From contig JAKAMO010000034.1 of assembly GCA_021812825.1 (NCBI GenBank), forward strand, positions 1 to 24,334: a stretch of 24,334 nt of DNA, read 5' to 3'. This document shows, one piece after another, positions 1,088 through 18,109 of this stretch (within the stretch, counting starts at the first letter, position 1; every line of letters starts with the position of its first letter). A program made the translations under genes and the position numbers. The notes below the pieces were generated by a model. That model had not been told where the DNA came from. It did no database searches and was given only the letters and a program-made list of their open reading frames with translations. Origin of the DNA: a bacterium. Lineage in GTDB: Bacteria; Elusimicrobiota; Elusimicrobia; Elusimicrobiales; UBA9959.

Positions 1088-2023
1088 ATGAGGAAACTAA
1101 TGCTGCTCGCCGCCGCGGCCGTGCTGGCCGGCGCCTGCGCGCCTTCCAAGACGGTGAAGACCCAGCAGGCGCTGAGCGTCAACGAGACCAAGAAGGTCAA
1201 GTCCGACTTCACCGGGCCCAAGCGCCGCATCGGCGTGGTGGAGTTCGAGAACAAGTCCGCCTACGGGCAGGGCCGCCTCGGCGGCGCCGCTTCGGACATA
1301 CTTATAACCGAGCTGGTCAAGTCCGGCAAGTTCATCGTGGTGGAGCGCGACAAGCTCAACAAGATCATGGAGGAGCAGAAGCTCCAGTCCCAGGGAATGA
1401 CCGACCCGCAGACGGCGGCCAAGGTGGGCCAGATACTAGGCCTCGAGGCCATAGTGGTCGGCTCGGTGTCGCAGTTCGGCGTGAAGAAGGAAGGGTCCGA
1501 CTACCTGCTGACGCAGTCCAAGCGCCAGGTGGCCGACGTGACCGTGGACATACGCCTGATAGACGTGCAGAGCGGCCAGGTGATACTGGCCGATTCCGGC
1601 AAGGGCATGGCCAAGAGCACCAAGGCGTCCTTCCTCGGCATGGGGACCAAGGGCGGCTACGACGAGACCCTAGAGGGAGAGGCGCTGCGCGCCGCGGTGG
1701 TGCAGTTCGTCACGAACATCGCCAGCCAGCTAAACAAGAAGCCCTGGTCCTGCATGATAGCGGACGCCTCCGGCGACGAGATGTACCTCAACGCCGGCCA
1801 GGATTCCGGGGTGGAAGAGGGGCTGGACCTCGACTGCTACCACCAGGGCGCGGAGATACGCGACCCGCGCTCCAACCTGGTCATAGGCCACAGGGAGCAG
1901 TACATAGGCCGCGCCGAGGTGGACCGCTACTGCGGCGACTCCGGCGACTGCTCGATCGCGAAGCTGACCAAGGCCGCCGGGCCTTCCCCGAAGGCCGGCG
2001 ACATCTGCCGCCTGGCGAAATAG
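1088..2023 (+). CDS. CsgG-family lipoprotein
   Basis: 311 residues, ATG preceded by a good ribosome site (AAGGAGG, 1075-1081). Residues 1-16 form a lipoprotein signal ending A-G-A before Cys17, a slightly atypical lipobox. The CsgG core is clear: R-I-G-V-V-E-F-E-N-K-S near 47, then L-I-T-E-L-V-K-S-G-K-F-I-V-V-E-R-D-K-L near 72, A-K-V-G-Q-I-L-G-L-E-A-I-V-V-G-S-V near 110, and V-D-I-R-L-I-D-V-Q-S-G-Q-V near 148. CsgG in enteric bacteria is a nonameric outer-membrane export channel for curli. Many homologues outside curli operons have unknown cargo, and no curli subunit gene is visible here. The C-terminal 90 residues (Cys-containing, after about residue 220) extend beyond the classic core. It is the last gene of the plus-strand group before the terminator at 2096-2130. 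Confidence 0.85.
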   Translation: MRKLMLLAAAAVLAGACAPSKTVKTQQALSVNETKKVKSDFTGPKRRIGVVEFENKSAYGQGRLGGAASDILITELVKSGKFIVVERDKLNKIMEEQKLQSQGMTDPQTAAKVGQILGLEAIVVGSVSQFGVKKEGSDYLLTQSKRQVADVTVDIRLIDVQSGQVILADSGKGMAKSTKASFLGMGTKGGYDETLEGEALRAAVVQFVTNIASQLNKKPWSCMIADASGDEMYLNAGQDSGVEEGLDLDCYHQGAEIRDPRSNLVIGHREQYIGRAEVDRYCGDSGDCSIAKLTKAAGPSPKAGDICRLAK

Positions 2024-2095
2024 CGGTTCCCGGACCGCCCCGTCAGGCGATCGCTGAAAAGTCCTATCAGTCTTTGGCCTATCGCATCTCAACCC

Positions 2096-2130
2096 AAAAC
2101 AAAGCCCCGCATAATGCGGGGCTTTGTTTT
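2096..2130. terminator. Bidirectional intrinsic terminator
   Basis: A perfect 15-bp stem (2096-2110 with 2116-2130) closes a 5-base loop. Its GC core is flanked by AAAAC on the left and GTTTT on the right, so it has a U-tract when read on either strand. It lies between the stop of the CsgG-family gene and the stop of the convergent beta-barrel gene, whose TAA (on the minus strand) starts within the last base of the stem. Confidence 0.9.
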
Positions 2131-2882
2131 TAGAACCTTGCTTTCACTCCTCCCAGGGTCTGGGAATAGTACATGGTAATGCGACCGCCGTCACCGCCAA
2201 GCCTCATTTTCTGGTAATTATATTCTATAAACAAGGCCAGGTTTTTATGAACGGCCGCATCTATTCCGAGACCGCTTTTAAAGCACGGGCCCTTATTTTT
2301 CCAGCTTTCTTTGACAGTATTGAACAGCACTCCGTCTTCCCATTCTCTCACGGAATAACTTTCCGAAAGGAAAGCCCTTCCTATGCCGCCAAAAACATAA
2401 GGCGAGAAAGAAATCTTTTTCAGGATAATCGGAACTCTGACCTTCAAATTCGCGGAATAGTTGGAAATACCCACCTCGTCACTCCACTGATATTTCTCGT
2501 GGTAAAGGCCGACCATATACTCTCCGCTCTCGCTTTTTCCGAAGCTATTAGCTTCGGAATATTCTCCCTGAACTTCCACGTATTTATTCAGAGAATAGCC
2601 GGCTCTCAGCACTAATGCAGAGCTGTTATGAAGTTCGGATTTGCCGTTTTGAACGATTCCGAACCCATAAGCATTTCCGAATCCGAGCAGGATGCTTAGT
2701 TTTGAATCCTTTTCAGCCGCCACGGTTTCCTTGTGTGCTTCGTCGGGAAGATGGGCGTTTTTAAGGAAGTCATGGAACTCAGCGTCGCTTAACGTCTGCA
2801 AAGGAGTCTCCTGCCCGTTCCCCTTGAGGGTGAAGACCAGAGGGAGTGCGAACATCAGTATAACTACCCGTAGCTTATTCAT
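2130..2882 (-). CDS. Outer-membrane beta-barrel protein
   Basis: 250 residues with a signal peptide of about 24 residues (hydrophobic core V-V-I-L-M-F-A-L-P-L-V-F, then Q-E). A short charged segment (about 25-60) is followed by alternating amphipathic strands rich in Tyr, Phe, Gly and Ser (for example Y-S-L-N-K-Y-V-E-V-Q-G-E-Y and F-S-P-Y-V-F-G-G-I-G-R-A-F). The chain ends in K-A-R-F, and the final Phe is the usual signal for barrel assembly by BamA. The layout fits the porin-like 'OMP_b-brl' superfamily of 8-stranded barrels. Ligand and function are unknown. It is the last of three minus-strand envelope genes, separated from its upstream neighbour by a hairpin at 2928-2963, so it may have its own promoter. 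No clear Shine-Dalgarno precedes the ATG. Confidence 0.75.
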   Translation of the reverse strand: MNKLRVVILMFALPLVFTLKGNGQETPLQTLSDAEFHDFLKNAHLPDEAHKETVAAEKDSKLSILLGFGNAYGFGIVQNGKSELHNSSALVLRAGYSLNKYVEVQGEYSEANSFGKSESGEYMVGLYHEKYQWSDEVGISNYSANLKVRVPIILKKISFSPYVFGGIGRAFLSESYSVREWEDGVLFNTVKESWKNKGPCFKSGLGIDAAVHKNLALFIEYNYQKMRLGGDGGRITMYYSQTLGGVKARF

Positions 2883-2927
2883 GATTGCTCATAAAAATCA
2901 GGACTGCCGTGAGGACAACGTATAACA

Positions 2928-2963
2928 AACTCCCTCCCGGGGCTTTAAACCGGCGAGGGAGTT
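2928..2963 (-). terminator. Hairpin, probable terminator of the 2995-3690 gene
   Basis: A 9-bp perfect outer stem (2928-2936 with 2955-2963) and a 4-bp inner stem (2937-2940 with 2950-2953) are separated by one bulged base. On the minus strand it follows the stop of the upstream beta-barrel gene by about 30 bases and is followed by a short T-rich stretch (GTTTGTTAT). The tract is weak, so some read-through into the next gene is possible. Confidence 0.55.
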
Positions 2964-2994
2964 CGTTCTGTGTGCTGAATTGCCAGGATCAGGT

Positions 2995-3690
2995 CTATTT
3001 GCCGAATTTCCAGCCAAGCATGATCGTGGCGTTCGCGCTCTGGTTGTTCTTGATGTCCCACTTGATGCCAAGCGTATCGGTTATTGTTTTCTTGGCTACA
3101 ATGTTTTGCCAGCGAACTCCAAGCCCGGCTACGATAGAATCGGTGAGATTCCCTTCAACACCGGCTCCTAAGGTTAAGGCGGCGCCTGAAATGCTGGTAT
3201 CGTAATTGTCGCGCCATTCCGTGGTAAGAGTATCGCTCCAGACTCCGCTGTTGATCGGCTTGGTTTTCGCGGAAATGTCCGTTTTGCCATATCCCGCGCC
3301 GGCTAAGAGATAAGGATAAAATCTTTTTTCCGGGGTCAATATGCAGCGCACGACCGCCTGCATGGTCACAGCCGAAGCGCTGTTCTGTATTTTGGCCGCG
3401 TGGGACAAAATTTCATGATCCTGGCCCTTGAAAGATGAACTGGCAAATTCCGCGCCGATTCCCCAGGCAGGGGAAAATTGATAGATATACTGTCCGCCTA
3501 TGGCCAGACCGCTTTTTACGGCGGTTTCATTTTTTCCGCCGAGGTCGGTCATGTCCGTTTTGGTAATCGGAATCGCGGCTCCGGCATTGATGTTAATGAA
3601 CTGCTGTCCTTTTTTTACCTCAGCGCGTCCTATATTTGCACAACTAATTATTGCGATTCCCATAAGAACCGAAGTAATGCTCTTTTTCAT
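2995..3690 (-). CDS. Outer-membrane beta-barrel protein
   Basis: 231 residues. The signal peptide is about residues 1-23 (K-K at the N-terminus, core V-L-M-G-I-A-I-I-S, cleavage near G-R-A before E). The mature protein has repeated amphipathic strands with Gly/Ala turns: F-I-N-I-N-A-G-A-A-I-P-I, A-I-G-G-Q-Y-I-Y-Q-F, F-Y-P-Y-L-L-A-G-A-G-Y-G, and L-T-L-G-A-G-V-E-G. The last strand is A-T-I-M-L-G-W-K-F-G-K. This is the pattern of small 8-stranded OmpW/OmpX-like barrels. It shares style and length with the 2130-2882 product, but I see no strong sequence identity. A GGAGAGG ribosome site lies just upstream. It sits 63 bases downstream of the small lipoprotein gene, probably in one transcript with it. 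Function is unknown. Confidence 0.75.
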   Translation of the reverse strand: MKKSITSVLMGIAIISCANIGRAEVKKGQQFININAGAAIPITKTDMTDLGGKNETAVKSGLAIGGQYIYQFSPAWGIGAEFASSSFKGQDHEILSHAAKIQNSASAVTMQAVVRCILTPEKRFYPYLLAGAGYGKTDISAKTKPINSGVWSDTLTTEWRDNYDTSISGAALTLGAGVEGNLTDSIVAGLGVRWQNIVAKKTITDTLGIKWDIKNNQSANATIMLGWKFGK

Positions 3691-3753
3691 TTTGTTCCTC
3701 TCCTGCTATTTGTTCGGCGCTTCTTGTCTTCTCGGTCGGTTTCTATTCCGAAC

Positions 3754-4176
3754 CTAGTTCGTTATTGTCTTATTCAGCGCGTTTTTGAATTCCGCAATTC
3801 GCTTATCCGCTGCTTCCTGCCCGCCGCTTCCTAAATTGCCGGAGAGAGTGATATTGATGTTGAGTGTTTTATTGTCTTCACCGACAGTTATGTTGATGGT
3901 AGCGCTGCTGTATTTCCCCAACAGAAGTCCGGAACCCATTGAAGACTGTGAGGCGAAACTGACATTCCTGAATTGCCTGTTAAGCCCGGAAACGCGGTAT
4001 CCTAAGGATTTTGCGGTTTTTGAAAGGACATCAAAGATATCGGTCCTGGGGGCTGGAAGTACAATCGTGTCCGCGCCCTGGAAAGTCTTGGTGCTGCTAA
4101 AGTGTCCGGGTGCTAGCAAGCAGCCGCACAGCCCAGCCATCGCCATTATTAAAGCGCCCATCGTTAATTTCTTCAT
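3754..4176 (-). CDS. Small lipoprotein of unknown function
   Basis: 140 residues. The N-terminus is a signal sequence ending L-C-G-C, so lipidation at Cys19 is likely (Cys17 is less good). The mature part has a helix-like region (about 45-60, I-F-D-V-L-S-K-T-A-K-S-L-G-Y), then beta-strands including S-A-T-I-N-I-T-V-G and T-L-N-I-N-I-T-L-S-G-N-L-G, and a C-terminal amphipathic helix. That order resembles small envelope lipoproteins with a single alpha/beta domain; I cannot name a family. It is first in the minus-strand envelope group and divergent from the XRE regulator. A promoter at 4215-4244 and a palindrome at 4240-4257 lie upstream, so it is the best candidate target of that regulator. 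Confidence 0.7.
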   Translation of the reverse strand: MKKLTMGALIMAMAGLCGCLLAPGHFSSTKTFQGADTIVLPAPRTDIFDVLSKTAKSLGYRVSGLNRQFRNVSFASQSSMGSGLLLGKYSSATINITVGEDNKTLNINITLSGNLGSGGQEAADKRIAEFKNALNKTITN

Positions 4177-4214
4177 TTTTCCTCCCGTGCTTGTCCGATT
4201 CCTAACTACAGGGT

Positions 4215-4244
4215 TTTATACTAATAACTACAACTATAAGTCAA
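4215..4244 (-). promoter_or_regulatory. Sigma-70-like promoter of the lipoprotein/barrel group
   Basis: On the minus strand TTGACT (4239-4244) and TATAAA (4215-4220) are separated by 18 bases in an AT-rich spacer. The predicted start of transcription is near 4208, about 30 bases before the lipoprotein ATG at 4176. The -35 box overlaps the palindrome at 4240-4257. Confidence 0.65.
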
Positions 4245-4257
4245 TAATAATATTGAC
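4240..4257. promoter_or_regulatory. Palindromic candidate operator for the XRE regulator
   Basis: A perfect inverted repeat GTCAATA-ATAA-TATTGAC (7-bp arms, 4-bp spacer) sits in the 160-bp gap between the divergent lipoprotein and XRE genes. It overlaps the lipoprotein promoter's -35 box. It also covers a possible -10 (TAATAT, 4248-4253) for the XRE gene. Size and symmetry suit a dimeric XRE/Cro-type repressor controlling both directions; binding is inferred. Confidence 0.6.
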
Positions 4258-4336
4258 CTGCAAATTATGTCCGCCGCCAACTCTTCTCTTCTACAATTAC
4301 TTGCTGCCGGGACGGCAATAAAAGGCGGAGGTTCTG

Positions 4337-4699
4337 ATGCGCAAGGACATACATTCAATCGTGGGGAACCGGATACGGGAAGAACGCCAAAGGGCCGGAC
4401 TTACCATGGAAAAACTTGCCGAGCTGGCAGGGATCAGCACGAGTTTTGTCGCCTATATTGAGACCAAGGGGAAAAAGGCCAGCTTGGAAACCATCGAGAA
4501 GATCTCCAATGCGCTAAGGCTCCCGGTGGCGGATCTCTTCCGGACAATGCCTGCGCCAGAGAAAGATTACATTTATAACGCCGCCCAAAGCTTCGCCCAA
4601 CTGATCAGGGACAAAAGCCAGGATGAGATCCGCGCCGCCCTGGATGTGGCAAAAACGACTTTAAACAGCATCTCGGGCGCGAAGGGAAAGCGGAAGTAA
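4337..4699 (+). CDS. XRE-family helix-turn-helix transcriptional regulator
   Basis: 120 residues. An HTH_3-type domain covers about residues 8-65: R-I-R-E-E-R-Q-R-A-G-L-T-M-E-K-L-A-E-L-A-G-I-S, then S-F-V-A-Y-I-E as the recognition region, then T-I-E-K-I-S-N-A-L-R-L-P-V-A-D-L-F. A helical C-terminal part (about 75-110) may mediate dimerisation, and the end is basic (K-G-K-R-K). There is no peptidase or sensor domain. A GGAGG site (4327-4331) supports the ATG. It is divergent from the secreted-protein group, with a palindrome between them, so it probably represses that group and itself. Its composition is less AT-rich than the barrel genes. Confidence 0.88.
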   Translation: MRKDIHSIVGNRIREERQRAGLTMEKLAELAGISTSFVAYIETKGKKASLETIEKISNALRLPVADLFRTMPAPEKDYIYNAAQSFAQLIRDKSQDEIRAALDVAKTTLNSISGAKGKRK

Positions 4700-4737
4700 C
4701 GCCGCTTATACAATTCCTGAAAAACTGTCTTTGTCAT

Positions 4738-4852
4738 CCCGGCAAGTCGTCTTGCCGGGCGGACCGCTTTGTATGCGGCAACTGGAGGAGGGAAGGCTTT
4801 TGCGGAAACTCCATGCCGGACTGCCGCCGGAATGTCTGCGGTGGCATGGAGT
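4738..4852. other. Structured intergenic element, possibly a REP/MITE-like repeat
   Basis: The 235-base gap between the XRE and TPR genes contains a cluster of inverted repeats: a 9-bp stem with 4-base loop (4738-4746 with 4751-4759), a small CCGC/GCGG hairpin (4764-4767 with 4775-4778), and a 10-bp stem (4808-4817 with 4843-4852) enclosing a further CCGC/GCGG pair. No T-tract follows, so it is not a standard terminator. It is locally GC-rich inside an AT-rich block and has no coding potential. The arrangement resembles a dispersed palindromic repeat, but only one copy is in this window. Confidence 0.4.
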
Positions 4853-4896
4853 GGATACGTCGGGCTAGTCTTGAATGCAAATCTCGAAGCAAGCAT

Positions 4897-4924
4897 TTGC
4901 GGATTCAAAAAATAGTGTTATAAT
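4897..4924 (+). promoter_or_regulatory. Promoter of the TPR gene, giving a near-leaderless mRNA
   Basis: TTGCGG (4897-4902) is followed after 16 bases by a perfect TATAAT (4919-4924), itself preceded by TGT, which makes an extended -10. Transcription would start near 4931-4933, only a few bases before the ATG at 4935. No Shine-Dalgarno is present. This decides against the in-frame ATG at 4875, which lies upstream of the promoter. Confidence 0.72.
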
Positions 4925-4934
4925 ATCCCGCGAT

Positions 4935-5861
4935 ATGAAAACACTTGTTTGGGTTGCGATATTTATTTCGACACATATAGTATTCGCGGGGGCGCAGCCG
5001 AATATCGATAGTTCGACGGTGCCGGCGACCCGCCAGGGGCTTTCCACCTCGGTCCAGGGTGTGGATGAAACAGGATATATTTCCGCGTCAGAATTCGAGC
5101 AGATCCTAAATGACGCCGAGAATACATTTAAGAAGGCAAAACCTGGCGGCGGGAATAAGTTTATAGATATCACGGTCGGGATGATTTCAAAAAAAGTCCG
5201 TGAGAATATAAAATTCAGTGATTATGTCCGGACCCATCCTGATCAGGCTATAAGGATCCTTGATAAAGAAATCGAGTTGAACGGGAATAACATAGACGCG
5301 CGCAATTGGAGGGCGACGGCTTATCGGGAAAAATGCGCGGGGTTTAATGCGAAATGGGGCGTGAATCCCGAAAAGAAAGTGTTTTGTGAGAATGCGCTGA
5401 AAGACTTCGGTAAAGTCGCCGAACTGTCCACAAAAGATACGATGGGGCCCGGCTACACTCCTTTAAAATCGGAGGCGTACCGGCAGCAGGGTATGCTTTA
5501 CGAGAAGATGGGAGAACAGGAGAAAGCATTGACAGCATATGCAACAGGGTTGCAATTTGTGAAACCCGGGTTCGGGAACTTCCTGTATCACAATAGATCT
5601 TCGTTGTTGATTGAAATGGGGAAATATGAGGAAGCCGTAACGGATCTTAAATCTTTTCTAAACGCCCATGTCGAAAAATATAGCAAGAAGGTGCTTGCTT
5701 TTTCTCCATGCAAGCATCTTTTTGAGAAAGGATATTTCGTGGACGGCTGTCCCGATAAGGAAATACTGCAAAAGAATGATTATCACTCATACAATAAATT
5801 GGTGTCGGAAGAAATGAGGAAGCACGACGAGGAAATGAAGAAGCAGCGGGAGGGAAAATGA
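4935..5861 (+). CDS. Secreted TPR-repeat protein
   Basis: 308 residues from ATG 4935. This start is chosen because it begins a signal peptide (M-K-T-L-V-W-V-A-I-F-I, cleavage near A-G-A-Q at about 20) and follows the promoter directly; an in-frame ATG at 4875 would add 20 residues with no signal character. Helical TPR-like units occur at about 96-130 (H-P-D-Q-A-I-R-I-L-D-K-E-I), 178-212 (A-Y-R-Q-Q-G-M-L-Y-E-K-M-G-E-Q-E-K-A-L) and 216-248 (E-M-G-K-Y-E-E-A-V-T-D-L). Four Cys residues (134, 151, 259, 272) could form disulphides. The C-terminus is a charged helix rich in Glu and Lys. TPRs bind other proteins, and the likely partner is the Cys-rich secreted protein encoded next, whose ATG overlaps this stop. 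Function beyond periplasmic protein binding is unknown. Confidence 0.75.
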   Translation: MKTLVWVAIFISTHIVFAGAQPNIDSSTVPATRQGLSTSVQGVDETGYISASEFEQILNDAENTFKKAKPGGGNKFIDITVGMISKKVRENIKFSDYVRTHPDQAIRILDKEIELNGNNIDARNWRATAYREKCAGFNAKWGVNPEKKVFCENALKDFGKVAELSTKDTMGPGYTPLKSEAYRQQGMLYEKMGEQEKALTAYATGLQFVKPGFGNFLYHNRSSLLIEMGKYEEAVTDLKSFLNAHVEKYSKKVLAFSPCKHLFEKGYFVDGCPDKEILQKNDYHSYNKLVSEEMRKHDEEMKKQREGK

Positions 5862-6247
5862 AACTACTAAAGTCTGGCCTTATATTCGCCGTCTGCATGG
5901 GCGGTTTGACGTTGCTTCACTCTGAGTGCATAGATGAAACCACCACTACGACCTATGGAGAGGAGATGGGGTATACGGTATGTGATACATACCATGATGG
6001 GAATTGCATTGATTTCCATTGTGTCCTGAACGATTATTCAGACGATAGCGTGATTTGTCATCGGTCAGCAGATATAAAGGAATGTAAAAATTGGGACGTA
6101 GATACGACGAATTCTGATCCCAGGCCGACTGAAGAGGTGTGCTGTAAATTTGATATTACGGATGCGTCATGCGAAGATACATGTACAACCCGTACAGTAG
6201 GGTATAAGAAAGTTCATCGTGAATGTACGTCTCTGGTTTATAATTAA
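5858..6247 (+). CDS. Small Cys-rich secreted protein of unknown function
   Basis: 129 residues. The ATG overlaps the stop of the TPR gene in ATGA (5858-5861), which implies translational coupling; a purine-rich GGGAGGG lies just before. A signal peptide covers about residues 1-22 (K-L-L-K-S-G-L-I-F-A-V-C-M-G-G-L). The mature part is acidic, Thr-rich and has 11 Cys residues (24, 42, 50, 55, 67, 76, 95, 96, 105, 109, 123). That is far more than any neighbour and implies a disulphide-stabilised fold. Cys24 might also be a lipidation site, but H-S-E-C is a poor lipobox. No homologous family is recognised. A terminator follows at 6276-6315, so the TPR and Cys-rich genes form a two-gene operon. Confidence 0.68.
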   Translation: MKLLKSGLIFAVCMGGLTLLHSECIDETTTTTYGEEMGYTVCDTYHDGNCIDFHCVLNDYSDDSVICHRSADIKECKNWDVDTTNSDPRPTEEVCCKFDITDASCEDTCTTRTVGYKKVHRECTSLVYN

Positions 6248-6450: not shown

Positions 6451-7983
6451 ATGCTGGCGAAAATACTCACGCTCGGGATAAAGGGGATAGACGGCTTTCC
6501 GGTGCTGGCGGAGGTTTACGTGGCCAGCGGGCTGCCGGCGTTCTCGATAGTCGGCCTGGCCGATACCGAAGTTAAGGAATCCAAGGACAGGGTGGTGGCC
6601 GCCATCCGCAATTCCGGCTTCGACTTTCCTGCCAAGCGCATAACCATCAACCTCTCTCCTGCCGAGGTCCGCAAATGCGGCACGCATTTCGATCTGCCCA
6701 TAGCGTTGGGAGTATTGGCGGCCTGCGGCAAGCTGAAAGAAGCGGAAGAGAGGCTGAAGAGCACCTTTTTCGTCGGTGAGCTGGCGCTCGACGGAGAAAT
6801 ACGGTCCGCGGCCGGGCTGCTGCCGATGCTGCTCTCTCTTTCCAGGGCCAAGGGCGCCTCCGCCGTGGTGCCCTCGGACAACCGCGCCGAGGCGGGGGTA
6901 TCCGGGGTGAGGGCTTTTTACGCTCCGGACCTGCGGGCTCTCGTGGCCGCGCTGAACTCGGGCGAGGGCCTGAGGTCCTGCGCCGGGGAGGATGGAGGGG
7001 CGGAGGAGCCGCCTGCCGAGCGCGGGGACTTTTCCGAGGTGCGGGGGCAGGCTTTCGCTAAACGTGCGCTGGAGATAGCCGCCGCGGGCGGTCATAACGT
7101 GCTTATGATGGGGCCTCCAGGGGCCGGCAAGTCCATGCTGGCCAGAAGGTTCTCCGGCATAATGCCGCCGATAACGAACGAGGAGGCCCTGGAGGTCACG
7201 AAGATATACTCGGTCTGCGGGCTGACGCGGGGAAGGCGGCTTATCCCGGCAAGGCCTTTCCGCGACCCGCACCACACCATCAGCGACATAGCGCTGATAG
7301 GCGGAGGCTCGCGGCCGCGCCCGGGAGAGGTCTCGATGGCGCATAACGGCGTGCTGTTCCTGGACGAGCTCGCGGAGTTCTCGCGTTCCAGCCTGGAGGT
7401 GCTGCGTGAGCCGCTGGAGTCATTCCAGGTGACCGTCTCCAGGGCCAGGGAGAGCGCCCGCTTCCCGGCGAGATTCACGCTGATAGCGGCCAGCAATCCA
7501 TGTCCTTGCGGCTTTCTGGGTCACCCGGACAGGGAGTGCCGCTGCTCTCCGCTTCAGGTACAGCGTTACCGCGGCAAGATCTCCGGTCCGTTGCTGGACC
7601 GGATAGATCTGAACATACAGCTCTCCCCGGTGCGCTATTCCCACTGGGCGCGGCCAGGGGAAGGGGAGCCGTCATCGGTAATACGCGAGCGGGTAGTGGC
7701 GGCCAGGAAAATACAGTCCTCCCGCTTTGCCGGCAGCAGGACCACCGCCAACGCGTTCATGAGCGCGGCCCAGATAAGGAGGTTCTGCCGGCTGCCGCCC
7801 GGAGGGGACGAGGTGCTGGAGACCGCGATGAACAGGCTGGGGCTTTCGGCCCGCAGCCTGGACAAGATACTCAAGGTGTCGCGCACCATGGCGGACCTGG
7901 AAGGCGAGGCGGATATACGCAGGGAGCATCTGGTGGAGGCCATGCAGTACAGGAGCTTCGACAGGGCTCAGGCGCAGGACTGA
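6451..7983 (+). CDS. comM: ComM/YifB family Mg-chelatase-like AAA+ ATPase
   Basis: 510 residues, full family length. In naturally competent bacteria ComM is a hexameric helicase that drives branch migration while incoming DNA is recombined; in others the family is a general recombination helper. Residues 1-170 form the N-terminal ChlI-like domain (F-S-I-V-G-L-A-D-T-E-V-K-E-S near 31, S-P-A-E-V-R-K near 69). The AAA+ core follows: Walker A G-P-P-G-A-G-K-S (221-228), Walker B V-L-F-L-D-E (301-306), sensor region A-A-S-N-P (346-350), and the characteristic Cys cluster (C351, C353, C363, C365) expected to bind zinc. G-P-L-L-D-R-I-D-L (379-387) carries the conserved Arg. The Mg_chelatase_C region ends the protein. 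A G-rich ribosome site (AAAGGGGGG) precedes the ATG. dprA lies downstream, supporting a DNA-uptake or recombination context. Confidence 0.95.
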   Translation: MLAKILTLGIKGIDGFPVLAEVYVASGLPAFSIVGLADTEVKESKDRVVAAIRNSGFDFPAKRITINLSPAEVRKCGTHFDLPIALGVLAACGKLKEAEERLKSTFFVGELALDGEIRSAAGLLPMLLSLSRAKGASAVVPSDNRAEAGVSGVRAFYAPDLRALVAALNSGEGLRSCAGEDGGAEEPPAERGDFSEVRGQAFAKRALEIAAAGGHNVLMMGPPGAGKSMLARRFSGIMPPITNEEALEVTKIYSVCGLTRGRRLIPARPFRDPHHTISDIALIGGGSRPRPGEVSMAHNGVLFLDELAEFSRSSLEVLREPLESFQVTVSRARESARFPARFTLIAASNPCPCGFLGHPDRECRCSPLQVQRYRGKISGPLLDRIDLNIQLSPVRYSHWARPGEGEPSSVIRERVVAARKIQSSRFAGSRTTANAFMSAAQIRRFCRLPPGGDEVLETAMNRLGLSARSLDKILKVSRTMADLEGEADIRREHLVEAMQYRSFDRAQAQD

Positions 7984-8029: not shown

Positions 8030-8058
8030 TTGACATAATAAGTTATATTCAATATCTG
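8030..8058 (+). promoter_or_regulatory. Probable promoter of the LysM gene
   Basis: A perfect TTGACA (8030-8035) in an AT-rich patch is followed after 17 bases by TATCTG (8053-8058), a moderate -10. Transcription would start near 8065, leaving a leader of about 65 bases. The TAAAAT at 8002-8007 is an alternative -10 further upstream. Confidence 0.45.
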
Positions 8059-8064
8059 CGCACA

Positions 8065-8106
8065 GGCGGGAAGCCCGCCGGCCGGGAATCGTGATTCCTG
8101 CCCGGC
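8065..8106 (+). other. Two hairpins in the LysM gene leader
   Basis: GGCGGG (8065-8070) pairs with CCCGCC (8074-8079) across a 3-base loop. A second structure pairs GCCG near 8081 with CGGC near 8103, with an inner GGAAT/ATTCC stem. Neither is followed by a T-tract and they end about 15 bases before the ribosome site. They could stabilise the mRNA or modulate translation; no known riboswitch is recognised. Confidence 0.35.
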
Positions 8107-8131
8107 AGCGGGCCTTATACGGAGGCGGTAG

Positions 8132-9451
8132 ATGAAAAGAACAGCGTTATTTTTCCTGATTTTCGCGGCTCCTGCCGCGCTCTTCTCCCAGCAGACGAAG
8201 CTGACCGAGGTTAAGCTCGACGAGCCTGAGAAAGCCGCCACGGATACCGTTAAGGCCGCAGCCGATGATAAGGTGACCGTTATTGAGCCAGTGGTGCAGC
8301 CCGCCAAGACGAAAGCGAAGCCCGCGGCCAAAGCGCCAGCCTCTGCAACCACGAAGGCCGGCGACGCCAAGTCCCAGGCCGCCGCGGACTACGCGGCCAA
8401 ATATCTGCATGTCAGCCCGGACAGCCCTGTGGTGGGCCGCAAGGAGAGCGCCGCCCCCCAGTCCAAGGCCGCCAGTCCCCAGTCCAAAGCCGCCGCCGAC
8501 TACGCGGCCAAATATCTGCACGTCAGTCCTGACAGCCCCGTGGTGGGCAGCAAGGAGAGTTCCGTCACTCAGCCCAAGGCTGCAGCCCCTAAGTCCAAGG
8601 CCGCCGCAGACTATGCGGCCAAGTATCTGCGCGTCAAGCCCGGCGCCAAGGTGGTCGGCGCCGCCGGACCCGTTCCCGGAAAAACGGCCGCTCCGCGCGT
8701 CATGCCGGCCGTCGCCGCGCCCCAGGCGGAGGGCGGTTTCCGCGTTCTGAAGAGGCACGTGATAGTGCCCGGGGACACGCTCTGGGACCTGGCCGCCAAG
8801 TACTACAACAATCCGTTCATGTGGGGCCGCATCTATAACGCGAATTTCAGCACGGTCTCCAACCCTGACCGCATCTACCCGAAGAACGAGCTTGTTATTC
8901 CCGACATCAGCGAACTCCTCATCCCTTATCGCACTCCGGAGGTGGCTTCCGCGGACCTCACCCCGGAGGAAGGCGCGCAGGAACCTGCTCCGGCGCCATC
9001 CCCGTCCGTCTCCGCGGTACGCGCTCCGGCCATGCCGTCGGCCGACGAGGACATCCCCGACCTGGACAGCAACTATCTCTCCGAGGAGATGCCGGAGGAC
9101 CAGAAGGAATGGTCCGACGGGGTCAAGGTGGTCCCGGACAGCTGGACCGAGGACGGGGTGGTCACCGCCAAGCTGAAGAACGACGACGATTTCCTCGAGG
9201 ACGGCATCTCCTCCTCCGGCGAGGTGCTCGAGATCTCCATGGACAGCTCCGGCCTGGTCCGTCCCGGCGACTACCTGAACGTATACCTGCGCGGAGCGGA
9301 CGCTTTCGACAAGGAAGGCAACCGCATCGGCCGCGAGCTGCAGTACGCCGGCACCGCCGAAGTCTTCAGCGTCGACGACACCGACGTGAAGGCCAGGATA
9401 CTGGACGCCACCACGGCCATTTACAAGGATTACGTCGTAAAGAAGAAGTAA
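8132..9451 (+). CDS. Secreted LysM-domain protein with a three-copy 37-residue repeat
   Basis: 439 residues with GGAGG (8121-8125) before the ATG and a signal peptide of about 19 residues (F-F-L-I-F-A-A-P-A-A-L-F-S). Residues 20-200 are Ala/Lys/Pro-rich and hold three copies of a unit containing A-A-A-D-Y-A-A-K-Y-L, starting at residues 81, 118 and 155. One LysM domain covers about 209-257: H-V-I-V-P-G-D-T-L-W-D-L-A, then N-P-F-M-W-G-R-I-Y, then I-Y-P-K-N-E-L-V-I-P. LysM binds peptidoglycan, so the protein should sit in the periplasm. After a Pro/Asp-rich stretch (275-330), residues 335-439 form a beta-rich C-terminal domain (G-D-Y-L-N-V-Y-L-R-G, A-G-T-A-E-V-F-S-V). No catalytic motif is seen. 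It lies between comM and dprA, co-directional with both. A structural or scaffold role at the cell wall is inference. Confidence 0.85.
   Translation: MKRTALFFLIFAAPAALFSQQTKLTEVKLDEPEKAATDTVKAAADDKVTVIEPVVQPAKTKAKPAAKAPASATTKAGDAKSQAAADYAAKYLHVSPDSPVVGRKESAAPQSKAASPQSKAAADYAAKYLHVSPDSPVVGSKESSVTQPKAAAPKSKAAADYAAKYLRVKPGAKVVGAAGPVPGKTAAPRVMPAVAAPQAEGGFRVLKRHVIVPGDTLWDLAAKYYNNPFMWGRIYNANFSTVSNPDRIYPKNELVIPDISELLIPYRTPEVASADLTPEEGAQEPAPAPSPSVSAVRAPAMPSADEDIPDLDSNYLSEEMPEDQKEWSDGVKVVPDSWTEDGVVTAKLKNDDDFLEDGISSSGEVLEISMDSSGLVRPGDYLNVYLRGADAFDKEGNRIGRELQYAGTAEVFSVDDTDVKARILDATTAIYKDYVVKKK
8372..8659 (+). repeat. In-frame tandem repeat, 111-bp period, three copies
   Basis: Copies of a 66-base conserved core begin at 8372, 8483 and 8594, exactly 111 bases (37 codons) apart. 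Copies 1 and 2 encode almost the same 22 residues (one replacement, Q to K), yet five further codons differ only synonymously. Copy 3 is more diverged (H to R, S-P-D-S-P to K-P-G-A-K). The synonymous differences argue for selection on the protein sequence rather than a recent duplication. Confidence 0.85.
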
Positions 9452-12842: not shown

Positions 12843-12871
12843 AAAAAGCCCGGGTCTTCCCGGGCTTTTTT
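12843..12871 (+). terminator. Intrinsic terminator of topA
   Basis: A perfect 12-bp stem (12843-12854 with 12859-12870) with loop TCTT ends in a run of six T. The left arm begins with five A, so it could also terminate minus-strand transcripts. It lies 18 bases after the topA stop. Confidence 0.93.
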
Positions 12872-12873
12872 CT

Positions 12874-12899: not shown

Positions 12900-13619
12900 A
12901 TGCGTCCAAAGATACTGTTCGTGGATGATAACCGGGACCTGCGCGCGGACTTCCCGCTCTGGTTCCCGGAGTACGAGGTCACGGCCGCCGCCAGCGCCGA
13001 AGAGGCCCTCGCCATGCTGCGCAGGCCGGACTCGTTCTCGCTGGTCATCATGGACGTCTACCTGCCGGGCATGGACGGGTTGAAGGCGCTGGAGCGCATC
13101 AAGGACCTTTCCCCGGGGAAGCCGGTCATCATCATGACCGGGTTCAGCACCAAGGACATAGCCGTTCACGCCCTGGCCGCCAAGGCCGACAACTATCTGG
13201 AAAAGCCCTTCGGCATCAAGGACGCGCGCGCGGTGATAGAGAAGGAACTGGCGCGGGCCGGCGGCCTCTCGCGCCCGGAAGACATGGGTATGGACGCCAA
13301 GATAGAGCACGTCCGGGGGTTTATCGAGGGCAACTGCTTCAAGAAGATCACTCTCAGCGACGCCGCCGAAGCCGTGCTCCTTACTCCCAAGTACCTGAGC
13401 AAGGTGTTCCGCGAGCGCACCGGCATGGGCTTCAACGAGTACAAGCTGAAGGTCAAGATGGACCAGGCCAGGAAGATGCTCAAGACGTCCGGCCTGACGC
13501 TGAAGCAGATTTCCGCCAGGCTCGGCTACGCCAATACCGAATCTTTCATCCGCCAGTTCGAGCGCATAGTCAGGACCACTCCCTCCCGCTACCGCGGCCT
13601 TCGCCCCCGAAAGCGCTGA
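12900..13619 (+). CDS. Response regulator with AraC-type DNA-binding domain
   Basis: 239 residues. The receiver domain (3-115) has acidic pair D9-D10, phospho-acceptor D52 (V-I-M-D-V-Y-L-P-G-M-D-G), T80 and K102 (L-E-K-P-F). The C-terminal AraC-type HTH (about 135-235) has A-A-E-A-V-L-L-T-P-K-Y-L-S-K-V-F-R-E as the first helix-turn-helix and I-S-A-R-L-G-Y-A-N-T-E-S-F-I-R-Q-F as the second. The protein is therefore a two-component transcription activator. The histidine kinase at 15848-18109 is the nearest candidate partner. The ATG directly follows a nine-G run, the only ribosome-site-like sequence. It begins the signalling cassette between topA and the recombinase. Target genes are not visible, though the pilus-ATPase gene downstream has its own promoter. 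Confidence 0.92.
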   Translation: MRPKILFVDDNRDLRADFPLWFPEYEVTAAASAEEALAMLRRPDSFSLVIMDVYLPGMDGLKALERIKDLSPGKPVIIMTGFSTKDIAVHALAAKADNYLEKPFGIKDARAVIEKELARAGGLSRPEDMGMDAKIEHVRGFIEGNCFKKITLSDAAEAVLLTPKYLSKVFRERTGMGFNEYKLKVKMDQARKMLKTSGLTLKQISARLGYANTESFIRQFERIVRTTPSRYRGLRPRKR

Positions 13620-13742: not shown

Positions 13743-15842
13743 ATGGAAAAGTCCGACGCGGGAGTGTTGCACCTCGAACTGGACGCCATGTTCGGCGAAC
13801 AGCCGGCGGGCGCGAGAGCCTCAAAGGCTGCGCCGCCTCCCGCGGCGGCTTCTCCCTCGCGCGGGAAAGAGCCGCAGAAGCCCCTGCTCAAAACCTACAC
13901 CATCCTGGTAGTAGACGACAATAAGGATTACAGGGACATAGTAAGGCACCTGCTTACCGTCCACCACTTCAACGTGGTAGAGGCCGTGGACGGGAGCGAG
14001 GCGCTCGGCATCATCACGAAGGCCCCGCCGGACCTGGCGCTGGTGGATTTCAACATGCCCAAGATGAACGGCTACGAGCTTATCCAGGAGGTGCGCAGCA
14101 ACTACGAGCTGCGCAATATGCGCATCATCATGTTCACCGGGGCGTCCAACAGGCAGCATCTCAAGACGCTGAACATGGATATCTCCGATTTCCTCGAGAA
14201 GCCGGTCCCTAACGCCAAGCTGCTGGAGAGCGTTAAGAAGGCGCTGGGCATGCTGCAGAAGCCCGCCCCGGAGCGGCCACCGGCGCCGCCGCCGAAACCC
14301 GTCCAGCCAGAAGAGCCGCTGGAGCCCACTCCTTCGTCGATGGTGGACCTGGAGATAGAGCGTTTCGAAATGCAGGAAGAGCAGGCCCGTCATCCGGTCG
14401 CGCGGCCGCAGGAGACGGCCCAGGCGCAGGTGGAGCTGCCGCGCGAACCGATATCACTGCCGGAGCCGGCTCCCGCCGCGGAGCCGGAGATCCCTCCCGC
14501 GACTGTCCCCGCCGCGGAGCCGGAGATCCTTCCCGAGCCGGAGGAAGAGGCCGTGGAGGAGGTCCCGGAGATGGACCAGGTATTCACGGCCGAGGATACC
14601 CACGAGATAGAGGTCATAGACAGCGAAGCGGAGCGGAAGGCCGAGGACCAGCAGATGGCCGGGATAGAGGCCATCGAGAAGGATTCTCCCCTGATACAGA
14701 TGGTCAATAAGATCCTGGTGAAGGCGGTGGAACTCAGGGCCTCCGATATTCACATGGAGCCGCAGGAGAACAAGGTCTCGGTGCGCGTAAGGGTGGACGG
14801 CGTGCTGCGGCAACTGACCACGCTGCCCATAGCCATCCACCCCCGCGTTACCGCCCGCATCAAGATCATGAGCAACCTGGTGATAACGGAGAGGCGCATA
14901 CCCCAGGACGGACAGTTCAGGGTCAATATCAAGGGCAACAGGATAGAGTTCCGCGTCAGCACGCTGCCCTGCATCAAGGGAGAGAAGATAGTCATGCGCG
15001 TTCTGGGACAGAGCAAGCTGAACTCCGATCTGGCCAAGCTCGCGCTGACGCCAAGAGAGCTCGGCTGCGTGGAGGCCGCGCTGAAGAGCCCCCACGGGCT
15101 CATATTGGTCACCGGCCCCACCGGCAGCGGCAAGACCACTACCCTCTATACGATGATAAATTACCTGAACAAGCCGGACGTCAACATCATGACGGCCGAG
15201 GACCCGGTAGAATACGAGGTGCCGAACGTCAATCAGGTGAAGATCATGCCGGCGGTGGGCCTCACCTTCGAGTCCACGCTGAGGGCCTTCCTGCGCCAGG
15301 ACCCGGATATAATGCTCGTCGGCGAGATCCGCGACCTAGAGACGGCCGAGATAGCCATAAAGGCGTCCATCACCGGCCACCTGGTCTTCTCCACGCTGCA
15401 TACCAACAACGCCCCGGCGACGGTGGTGCGCCTGACGCATATGGGCGTGGCGCCGTTCCTGGTAGCGGCCAGCGTGAAGATGGTGATAGCGCAGCGCCTA
15501 GTGCGCACCCTGTGCCCGCGCTGCAAGCGCCCGACCAAGCTTTCCGAGGATGACGCCCGTTTCCTTACCGGGGAGGAGCGCGCGCTGCTAAAGACCGTCT
15601 ACCACGCCCCGGGCTGCGCCAGCTGCCAGCACAGCGGCTATACCGGGCGCAGGGCCCTTTTCGAGGTGATGCCGGTCGAGAGTTCCGCCATGAGGCAGTT
15701 GATAACCACCAGCTTCAACGTGGACCAGCTGAGCGACCTGGCCGCGCAGGAAGGGATGACCACGTTAAGGCAGGCGGCGCTGGCCGCCGTGGCAGGCGGA
15801 GTCACCTCCATGACGGAAGCGCTGAAGATAATGATGGGGTGA
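13743..15842 (+). CDS. Receiver-domain fusion to a PilB/GspE-type secretion ATPase
   Basis: 699 residues. After a short Ala/Pro-rich N-terminus, residues 52-170 are a complete receiver domain: D58-D59, phospho-acceptor D102 (L-V-D-F-N-M-P-K-M-N-G), T132 and K153 (L-E-K-P-V). Residues 171-290 are a Pro/Glu-rich linker. Residues about 305-699 are a GspE/PilB-type ATPase: A-S-D-I-H-M-E-P (333-340), Walker A G-P-T-G-S-G-K-T (458-465), Asp-box region A-E-D-P-V-E-Y (485-491), Walker B L-V-G-E-I-R-D (525-531), His box S-T-L-H-T-N (550-555), and a four-Cys zinc site (C591, C594, C625, C628). The usual N-terminal MshEN domains of PilB are missing and the receiver takes their place. Such ATPases power type IV pilus extension or type II secretion from the cytoplasm. 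No PilC, PilT or pilin gene is in the window. The next gene is a histidine kinase 5 bases downstream. Confidence 0.93.
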   Translation: MEKSDAGVLHLELDAMFGEQPAGARASKAAPPPAAASPSRGKEPQKPLLKTYTILVVDDNKDYRDIVRHLLTVHHFNVVEAVDGSEALGIITKAPPDLALVDFNMPKMNGYELIQEVRSNYELRNMRIIMFTGASNRQHLKTLNMDISDFLEKPVPNAKLLESVKKALGMLQKPAPERPPAPPPKPVQPEEPLEPTPSSMVDLEIERFEMQEEQARHPVARPQETAQAQVELPREPISLPEPAPAAEPEIPPATVPAAEPEILPEPEEEAVEEVPEMDQVFTAEDTHEIEVIDSEAERKAEDQQMAGIEAIEKDSPLIQMVNKILVKAVELRASDIHMEPQENKVSVRVRVDGVLRQLTTLPIAIHPRVTARIKIMSNLVITERRIPQDGQFRVNIKGNRIEFRVSTLPCIKGEKIVMRVLGQSKLNSDLAKLALTPRELGCVEAALKSPHGLILVTGPTGSGKTTTLYTMINYLNKPDVNIMTAEDPVEYEVPNVNQVKIMPAVGLTFESTLRAFLRQDPDIMLVGEIRDLETAEIAIKASITGHLVFSTLHTNNAPATVVRLTHMGVAPFLVAASVKMVIAQRLVRTLCPRCKRPTKLSEDDARFLTGEERALLKTVYHAPGCASCQHSGYTGRRALFEVMPVESSAMRQLITTSFNVDQLSDLAAQEGMTTLRQAALAAVAGGVTSMTEALKIMMG

Positions 15843-15847
15843 TAGTT

Positions 15848-18109
15848 ATGAGCCCTCTGGACCAGGACTACACGGGAGCTGCCGGGGCCGGGAACGACGA
15901 GGCCCGGACCAAGTACGGTATCTCCTACCCGGAGCTCTGCTCCGAGTTCCTGGCGGCGCTTTCCCGCACCGCGAAGAGCGCCGCGCTCTATACCATGACC
16001 CATCCTCTGGTCACGCAGTCCCTCGGACGCGCCTATGCGGCCCTCGGCGAGGTCATCGATTCCACCGGCGGCGGACCGCTCACGGTATCTTATCAGAACG
16101 ACGCCTGGATCTTCAGCGGCAGACCGGTGCAGGCTACCGGTCTGGAGGCCGCCAATCTGGCGCAGCTGTTCAAGGCGCATTACATCAACGGCATCGTTTT
16201 CGATCCCGGGGTGAGGGTGTCAGAGCTCGCCGTGCTCTGCGGGTTCCTCGGGGCCGGTGCGCGCGGCCAGCAGGGACCCTCGCTGGGGGCCTTCCTGAAG
16301 AGCAACGGCGTTACGGACATACGCCAGGAAGAATCACGCTATGTGAGGGATACGGGGCGGATGGCGGCCCCTGAAACCGGGTCCCGGACGGGAGAGACCC
16401 GGAAAGAAGTTAGGCCACGGCCGGAGGCGGTAAGTCCCGCCCCGGAGTTGACGCCCCGGCCGTCGGCCTCCTATCGTCCTGGTCCGCGCTTCGAGCCTGC
16501 GCCAGAGCCGCTTTCCCCTGAAATGTTCCCGCGCAAGGGCGCTCAGCCGCCGGCCGCAGCTTCGAAGGCTGGCGGCGGGCAGGCCGGAGCCGCTAAAGCG
16601 GCGGCGGGTGCGGTCGCTGCAGCCGGAGCCGGTACCGGTGGCAAGGCAGCAGTCCCGGATCCGGCCGCGGGCAGGGGCGGCGCAGCGGGCGGAGGCCAGG
16701 GCACCGGTGCCGGCTCCGGTACAGGCTCAGGTCCCGGCGCAGGAGGAGGCGCCGGTAGCGGGACAGGGAGCGGCTCTGGTGCCGGCTCCGGCGGAGGTAC
16801 AGGCACGGGTACCGGGACAGGCAGCGGCGACGGGAGCGGAGGCTTCGAGGGGGCCGGGGAGGGAAAGGGCGGAGGTCTTGGCGAGCTGCTGACCAGGCTT
16901 ATAGATTCAGCTATCAAGGACCCTAATGACAGGGTCAAGATGTACGAGGATGCCCTCAGGACCATAAAGGAGAGCATGGGGCGGCAGATCGCCAAGGCCA
17001 CGAGCGAGCTGGCCGCCGAGAAGAAGCAGATCCTGGATACGCGCACCCGCACCGAGCAGGTGCTGGCCCATGTGGCCGAAGGCAAGGTCATCGTCGACAA
17101 GGACGGCAAGATACTGATGATGAACACCGCCGCCGAGGAGATGTCCGGCCGGAAGCTGTTCGAGGTGGTGGGCAAGCACATCAGCGAGCACCTGAACCCG
17201 GCGGAACACATACTGACGCTTTCCAAGGACATGGACCTTTCTTCGGGAAAAGCTCCCACCGGCGAGGTGAGCGACGTCGGCGACGAGGGCGTCAGGGGGG
17301 CCATGCGGCGCTCGATGGCGCTGCTGCAGGACGACCAGGGGCGGGTCGTCGGCGCCTATATGACGCTGCCCGAGGTGACCAAATACCGCGACGCGCAGCG
17401 CCTGCAGGACGAATTCCTGTCGCGCGTTACCCACGACCTCCAATCGCCGCTCTCCTCGATAAGCTCCGCCCTCGAGATGCTCAGCGATACCGCCGGCGCC
17501 AAGCTGGACGGCGACGAGAACAACTTCCTGGCCATAAGCATACGCAACAGCCAGCGGCTCAGCGAGATGATAAGGGGGATACTGGATTTCTCCAAGCTGC
17601 AGTCGGGAAAGATGCCGGTGCATCCGGAGCCCTGCATGCTGGGACCCATGCTCAACGAGGGCGTGGACGGCCTGTTGCCCTGGGCGAAGACCAAAGGCAT
17701 AAAGCTCACGCTGAAGACCTCCGCCCAGGATGTCCCGGTGCTGGCCGACCACCCGCGGATAGTGCAGGTGCTCAGCAACCTTATCTCCAACGCGATAAAG
17801 TCCACGCCTTCCGGCGGCAGCATCGTCGTGGCGGCCGCCAGGGCGGCCATGCCGGAGCCCTGCGCTATGATAGGGGTGCGTGACAACGGCCCCGGCATCT
17901 CCAAGAAGGACCTGGACCGGATCTTCGAGAGGTTCGTGCAGCTCGAGGACGGGGGCAAGCGCGAGGGAGTTGGCCTGGGACTGTCGATAGTGAAGGAGTT
18001 CGTGGCCATGCACAAGGGCAGGATCTGGGCCGAAAGCGAACAGGGCAAGGGGACCACCTTCTACTTCACCCTGCCGCTCGCCGACGAAAGGCTCGTCGGG
18101 CGCGCCTGA
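15848..18109 (+). CDS. Histidine kinase with N-terminal unassigned domain, Gly-rich linker and PAS domain
   Basis: 753 residues from ATG 15848, chosen because GGGGTGAT lies 5 bases upstream; a GTG at 15839 overlapping the previous stop would add three residues. Residues about 20-160 form a compact alpha/beta domain (F-L-A-A-L-S-R-T-A-K-S-A-A-L-Y-T-M-T-H-P, then L-T-V-S-Y-Q-N-D-A-W-I-F-S-G) like an N-terminal module seen in other signalling proteins; I cannot name it. A Pro-rich stretch and a Gly/Ser/Thr tract (about 280-332) follow. A coiled-coil-like helix (370-400) leads into PAS (about 405-510), HisKA with His529 (R-V-T-H-D-L-Q-S-P-L), and HATPase with N box N644/N648, D-N-G-P-G-I (679-684) and G-L-G-L-S-I-V (709-715). 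There are no transmembrane segments, so it is probably cytoplasmic. It is encoded with the REC-ATPase and may phosphorylate it or the AraC-type regulator. Confidence 0.9.
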   Translation: MSPLDQDYTGAAGAGNDEARTKYGISYPELCSEFLAALSRTAKSAALYTMTHPLVTQSLGRAYAALGEVIDSTGGGPLTVSYQNDAWIFSGRPVQATGLEAANLAQLFKAHYINGIVFDPGVRVSELAVLCGFLGAGARGQQGPSLGAFLKSNGVTDIRQEESRYVRDTGRMAAPETGSRTGETRKEVRPRPEAVSPAPELTPRPSASYRPGPRFEPAPEPLSPEMFPRKGAQPPAAASKAGGGQAGAAKAAAGAVAAAGAGTGGKAAVPDPAAGRGGAAGGGQGTGAGSGTGSGPGAGGGAGSGTGSGSGAGSGGGTGTGTGTGSGDGSGGFEGAGEGKGGGLGELLTRLIDSAIKDPNDRVKMYEDALRTIKESMGRQIAKATSELAAEKKQILDTRTRTEQVLAHVAEGKVIVDKDGKILMMNTAAEEMSGRKLFEVVGKHISEHLNPAEHILTLSKDMDLSSGKAPTGEVSDVGDEGVRGAMRRSMALLQDDQGRVVGAYMTLPEVTKYRDAQRLQDEFLSRVTHDLQSPLSSISSALEMLSDTAGAKLDGDENNFLAISIRNSQRLSEMIRGILDFSKLQSGKMPVHPEPCMLGPMLNEGVDGLLPWAKTKGIKLTLKTSAQDVPVLADHPRIVQVLSNLISNAIKSTPSGGSIVVAAARAAMPEPCAMIGVRDNGPGISKKDLDRIFERFVQLEDGGKREGVGLGLSIVKEFVAMHKGRIWAESEQGKGTTFYFTLPLADERLVGRA
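16685..16843 (+). repeat. Low-complexity Gly-Ser-Thr-Ala coding tract
   Basis: About 53 codons encode almost only Gly, Ser, Thr and Ala, as degenerate G-S-G-T-G-units. The codons vary (GGC, GGT, GGA, GGG), so it is not a simple DNA microsatellite. It lies between the N-terminal domain and the PAS-kinase part and would be a flexible linker. Repeat copy number could differ between strains. Confidence 0.85.

Follow-up and report, generated by a model that had tools for sequence, protein, structure and literature searches.

A bacterium of the little-studied phylum Elusimicrobiota encodes a PilB-type secretion ATPase in which a receiver domain stands in for MshEN, next to a linked histidine kinase. 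The locus lies in a stretch of 24,334 nucleotides, which as a whole is called the window below. The union of a receiver with a secretion ATPase in one protein is not unique and occurs in several phyla; the new part is the replacement of MshEN, with a linked kinase. In the best explanation, favored with a confidence somewhat better than even, the kinase encoded downstream would phosphorylate aspartate 102 of this extension ATPase and so gate its docking or activation at a PilC-type platform.

The REC-PilB gene (13743..15842, + strand), read as an open reading frame from the window and annotated with Pfam, encodes 699 residues. A short N-terminal helix (residues 7-17; 13761..13793, +), predicted from a low-confidence model and a comparison of N-termini by eye, precedes the receiver domain (residues 54-164; 13902..14234, +). 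The latter matches the Pfam Response_reg model with an E-value of 3.1e-24 (85.7 bits for a cut-off of 30.2) and is modelled with a pLDDT above 90 for most residues; sequence and family alignment place the codon of the Asp102 phospho-acceptor at 14046..14048 (+). The T2SSE region (residues 312-694; 14676..15824, +), comprising the N2 and catalytic domains, was identified with Pfam (E 2.8e-133), NCBIfam and Foldseek. It contains the Walker A motif (residues 458-465; 15114..15137, +; sequence and alignment) and a stretch with four zinc-type cysteines (residues 591-628; 15513..15626, +); the core has the motifs known as Walker A, Asp box, Walker B and His box. The two domains are joined by a linker rich in Pro, Glu and Ala (about residues 170-293; 14250..14621, +), delimited by alignment, model and segment scan, in which the family rows reveal an IERF motif (residues 205-208; 14355..14366, +). 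AlphaFold2, supplied with 63 aligned family rows, predicted residues 184-293 to be disordered (pLDDT <50), the receiver with confidence and the ATPase region with middling confidence; the pTM was 0.36, so that the packing of the domains is not readable from this model. Foldseek nevertheless retrieved with it CheY-like receivers and the PilB cores of Geobacter and Thermus (about 40-46% identity), the rmsd to these cores being near 20 Å because the packing of the model is off.

No MshEN domain was found by the Pfam scan of the whole protein, which accordingly falls outside the MshEN c-di-GMP receptors. When residues 165-330 were scanned alone with hits admitted to E 10, the only match was one attributable to chance (E 2.6). 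When the sequences of solved structures were searched, the best stretch of each of the 60 matches listed, out of 261, was the ATPase or the receiver. The protein lacks MshEN and joins an intact receiver, through a disordered linker, to a complete PilB-type ATPase; the receiver looks catalytically competent. This anatomy agrees with the preliminary description of the locus, which had placed a receiver where MshEN is expected, with a Pro/Glu-rich linker of about 120 residues; the receiver residues that it named (D58, D59, D102, T132 and K153) and its ATPase motifs (Walker A 458-465; Cys 591, 594, 625 and 628) proved right on checking the sequence. A hidden MshEN fold in residues 171-310, which it had named as counting against its reading, was sought and not found by the scan and the model just described.

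A domain-architecture search, also proposed in that description, showed that the fusion is not a chance product. With residues 1-330 as query, 244 proteins were found at an E-value of 0.001; among the 120 matches listed, the precomputed Pfam lists combine REC and T2SSE in 63, and the lists of these 63 hold no MshEN. The organism names given for these rows are all Elusimicrobia, Elusimicrobiales or Elusimicrobiota. In their alignment, D102 and D59 are aspartate in every readable row (62/62 for both), K153 is lysine in all 63, T132 is threonine in 61 and serine in two, and D58 is aspartate in 58 and glutamate in four. Walker A 458-464, E486, D487, E528, H546, H553 and the cysteines C591, C594, C625 and C628 are invariant in the 63 rows, and T465 nearly so. 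The linker between receiver and ATPase ranges from 44 to 177 residues, and 52 of the 63 rows carry an IERF-like word in it. Both features would suit a receiver that only places the motor, recruiting to a pole or scaffold an ATPase that is itself unregulated; in other bacteria, polar assembly of pili is influenced by FimX, which also bears a receiver (PMC11656802). This alternative is nonetheless considered improbable, about one chance in five, since all the phosphotransfer residues are kept, none of which a mere address tag would need.

Species genomes were scanned as well; of the 241 stretches confirmed, 80 loci were kept, and 27 of these loci (L001-L027) belong to the REC-PilB family. The record titles of 24 of these loci name the phylum or a group within it, the other three stating only 'bacterium'. 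The fusion is a single open reading frame in 25 of the 27, the exceptions being L018, cut by a contig end, and L027, whose REC-PilB gene (L027:9593-11791) has near the ATPase start an in-frame stop that reflects either decay or an assembly error. In a wider sample of 198 Elusimicrobiota genomes, a REC-PilB match at E 1e-130 was obtained in 11, and a search with the receiver model at E 1e-32 picked out exactly these genomes. REC-PilB is a real family, and its anatomy and conservation are well supported.

The histidine kinase (15839..18109, +; 756 residues) consists, by Pfam, of an N-terminal domain designated here HK_N, a Gly-rich linker, PAS, HisKA and HATPase, and its first 4 bases in the window coincide with the end of the REC-PilB gene, stop codon included. 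In 26 of the 27 family loci REC-PilB is followed downstream by a same-strand kinase bearing HK_N, the exception being the truncated L018; the contig of L021 holds only the HK_N part of the kinase, and the second fusion copies L145 and L147 are likewise accompanied by a kinase. In 18 loci the two genes are -4 to +6 nt apart; for L010, L019 and L021 the ORF caller picked an upstream start, and in L023-L027 the gap is at least 414 nt, with a TPR gene in between in L024 and L025. Three of the 11 genomes mentioned above were new to the analysis and provided a small independent test of this linkage. The kinase is found downstream of REC-PilB in G109; G086 shows, some 340 bases from the end of its contig, only a 140-aa open reading frame with HK_N and no visible kinase core; and no kinase was found within the 13 kb fetched from G208. 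The kinase linkage of REC-PilB is well supported.

The upstream neighbour in the window is a response regulator of 239 residues with an AraC-type HTH (12900..13619, +), identified by Pfam and by comparison of neighbourhoods. Such a regulator accompanies 21 of the 27 loci, namely L001-L021 only (the L015 frame, as called, has the HTH without receiver), and L022 carries an OmpR-type regulator. The preliminary idea that phosphorylation bypasses transcription is therefore only half borne out: direct action of a signal on the motor is probably feasible, but the regulator present in 21 loci suggests that the kinase may serve transcription as well. The receiver of the AraC-type regulator could even be the main target of the kinase. 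Pushed further, the motor would be a feedback device or phosphate sink that draws phosphate from the kinase and reports its own state to the regulator, the output being transcription. The intact receiver of the upstream regulator in many loci speaks for this scheme, which must be rated quite improbable, for the kinase is still there in the six loci where no AraC-type regulator adjoins the pair. The retention of the kinase at these loci is counted in favor of direct action on the motor. In the same part of the window, an inverted repeat rich in G+C with T's behind it (12846-12873), between topA and the AraC-type regulator, resembles a terminator by eye and is unlisted in the consensus scan. Further upstream, positions 2001-6000 have a G+C content of about 48%, compared with 60-66% in the rest, and encode two beta-barrel outer-membrane proteins, an HTH regulator and a TPR protein; this region was possibly acquired. 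A gene for a GNA1162-like lipoprotein and then a CsgG-family gene occupy positions 457-2023.

HK_N (15890..16348, +) is an unnamed domain shared across the family kinases. Its model is confident (pLDDT 88.2, pTM 0.85), and Foldseek returned no match for it in solved structures at E 0.001 or better. It is present in 35 of the 198 genomes of the phylum, all 11 REC-PilB genomes among them. An additional HK_N match elsewhere occurs in 25 of 26 genomes, and the domain is thus found on other kinases too. These second copies are located in L184-L201; in the four loci read (L184, L188, L194 and L195) the second kinase adjoins a dehydrogenase-like gene, presumably of the nucleotide-sugar dehydrogenase kind. 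PilT paralogues of 475-485 residues were also observed near the second HK_N kinase (L184:3311-4759, L185:1920-3359, L186:8213-9640, L188:1027-2454, L190:8523-9980 and L191:6651-8099); they have about 115-125 extra N-terminal residues, for which Pfam gave no name in the three that were scanned.

The origin of the fusion can be followed in the ATPase tree. T2SSE and MshEN matches were obtained in each of the 26 genomes searched; comparing the match lists by eye showed none of the MshEN matches at a REC-PilB place. The tree comprised 98 ATPase domains (L158 being cut at a contig end and L027 entered as its ATPase half), and in it REC-PilB forms a clade of 32 rows with a support of 100/100, of which 28 carry the receiver, the rest being L148, L151, L158 and L027. 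The first branch of the clade unites L148 and L151, in which MshEN is present (E 1.1e-7 and 3.3e-10, respectively) and a receiver absent. Directly upstream of this MshEN-PilB are a kinase without HK_N and a gene for a lone CheY-like receiver; in L148 the receiver gene shares 13 bases with the start of pilB, and in L151 it stops 24 bases short of it. A second tree, built from 113 receivers taken only from the loci fetched, has few columns and many unresolved forks; it places these lone receivers on one side with the fused ones (92/90), and two receivers of hybrid kinases are on that side too. The exchange of MshEN for a receiver is placed by computation on the ATPase tree. Since L148 and L151 retain MshEN beside a lone receiver gene, an adjacent CheY-like gene probably joined pilB and MshEN was lost, a course of events that the data fit rather than prove. 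The split form of these two loci and the fused REC-PilB constitute a natural before-and-after pair.

The machine served by REC-PilB is most likely the type IVa pilus. The best NCBIfam match is TIGR02538 (PilB), with 538.2 bits, below the equivalog cut-off of 675.65; this low score is explained in part by the missing N-terminal part, and the canonical paralogue L120 also stays under the cut-off (645.6 bits). The ATPase might instead drive a secretion-type or other filament machine: the GspE model scores 504 bits, close to that of PilB, several T2SSE paralogues exist per genome, no T2SSF (pilC) or second T2SSE was detected among the window proteins scanned with Pfam, and the matches obtained in 12 genomes place no pilC next to REC-PilB. 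Such an assignment is held to be rather unlikely, because PilB provides both the best NCBIfam match and the closest solved cores, and because in two REC-PilB genomes the canonical pilB is missing from an operon that retains pilT and pilC. In several genomes the gene for the canonical PilB (589 aa) stands just ahead of pilT, and the canonical clade in the 98-domain tree includes 21 of 26 genomes, those not in it being G010, G013, G014, G015 and G023. G006, G008, G009 and G012 contain matches with 87-91% identity to canonical PilB; in G010, G013, G014 and G015 the identity reaches only 41-46%. In G012 and G008 the gene order is a 788-aa-type gene, pilB, pilT and pilC; the same flanking genes surround a 200-base gap at the expected place of pilB in G013 (L171: upstream ORF end 6682, pilT 6883-7959, pilC 8031-9221), and in G014 the same upstream protein end is followed by pilT and pilC. 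Only these two genomes are informative on pilB loss, since pilT lies at a contig start in G010 and G015 has no close pilT. Both have kept REC-PilB, which is therefore a candidate for the motor working with that PilC. Further PilB paralogues without a pilC of their own are also present in G013 and G014.

The rarity implied by the preliminary description was too strong, as other fusions of a receiver with a secretion ATPase exist. According to Wang et al. 2016 (PMC5013675), MshEN is found together with receivers. A second Elusimicrobiota PilB family, with 16 open reading frames (L111, L117, L122, L131-L141, L144 and L152) and its own tree group (97/59), has the order MshEN, ATPase, receiver; the acceptor aspartate is kept in 16/16, and MshEN was found in 15, four by Pfam scan and eleven by genome search, L111 being cut. 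In a third kind the receiver precedes T2SSE, as in L169, whose MshEN match (22.0 bits) is under the Pfam cut-off of 23.1, and in L153. The latter (L153:1164-4316, - strand) encodes 1050 residues with three receiver stretches, Hpt, MshEN and T2SSE, and thus gathers several phosphorelay parts on a single motor ATPase. A search with L169 found 5855 proteins; among the 120 listed, 65 by our own count combine REC and T2SSE, many of them with MshEN, and the names listed include Chloroflexi, Aminicenantes, Syntrophorhabdaceae, Gemmatimonadetes and Elusimicrobia. The precomputed list lacks MshEN for some of these REC and T2SSE proteins, among them that of Chloroflexi, and the absence of the domain cannot therefore be called unique to Elusimicrobiota. 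The fusions with the orders REC-MshEN-T2SSE and MshEN-T2SSE-REC share with REC-PilB the receiver and secretion ATPase in one protein, but retain MshEN (below cut-off in L169) and occupy other branches of the ATPase tree.

Compared with PilB, GspE and MshE proteins bearing MshEN (N1D), such as Geobacter PilB (PDB 5tsh) and Vibrio MshE, REC-PilB keeps the N2 and catalytic domains with their catalytic and cysteine motifs (about 45% identity to the Geobacter PilB cores), and has a receiver and a disordered linker where those have MshEN. A receiver-domain protein has also been proposed to control a PilB motor at the protein level in Synechocystis, where the PATAN-receiver PixE would act on PilB1 downstream of a BLUF photoreceptor (review PMC7690835); PixE is a separate protein acting in trans, whereas the receiver of REC-PilB is built into the motor. 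FimX-PilZ-PilB and PilG/PilH (Pil-Chp) similarly bring signalling input to PilB-driven pili, but as separate proteins, and the receiver of FimX is described as lacking the acceptor aspartate (PMC11656802).

That phosphorylation switches the motor, including the phosphotransfer, the gating step and its direction (on or off), we infer. After phosphorylation of D102 by the kinase, the modification would most likely alter receiver-receiver pairing in the hexamer or the binding of the receiver to a partner, and the altered pairing or binding would control the step at the platform; rigid allostery is unlikely because the linker is long and disordered. Counted against this explanation are the occurrence of HK_N on other kinases, the lack of pilC beside REC-PilB, the kinase exceptions in G208 and G086, the score under the PilB cut-off and the other orphan PilB paralogues in G013. 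A broader scenario, advanced tentatively and with appreciably less confidence than the switch itself, is that receivers were fused more than once to pilus-extension motors in Elusimicrobiota, giving phospho-switched motors, and that the CheY-like gene which joined the adjacent pilB displaced a c-di-GMP-type domain, the REC-PilB/kinase pair taking over type IVa pilus extension in genomes that lost canonical pilB.

Known signals get to PilB via separate proteins or MshEN, and the contribution of the N-terminal domain is poorly understood according to a 2024 review (PMC11656802). A built-in receiver with a linked kinase would give a compact system for the signal gating of pilus extension and for this N-terminal contribution.
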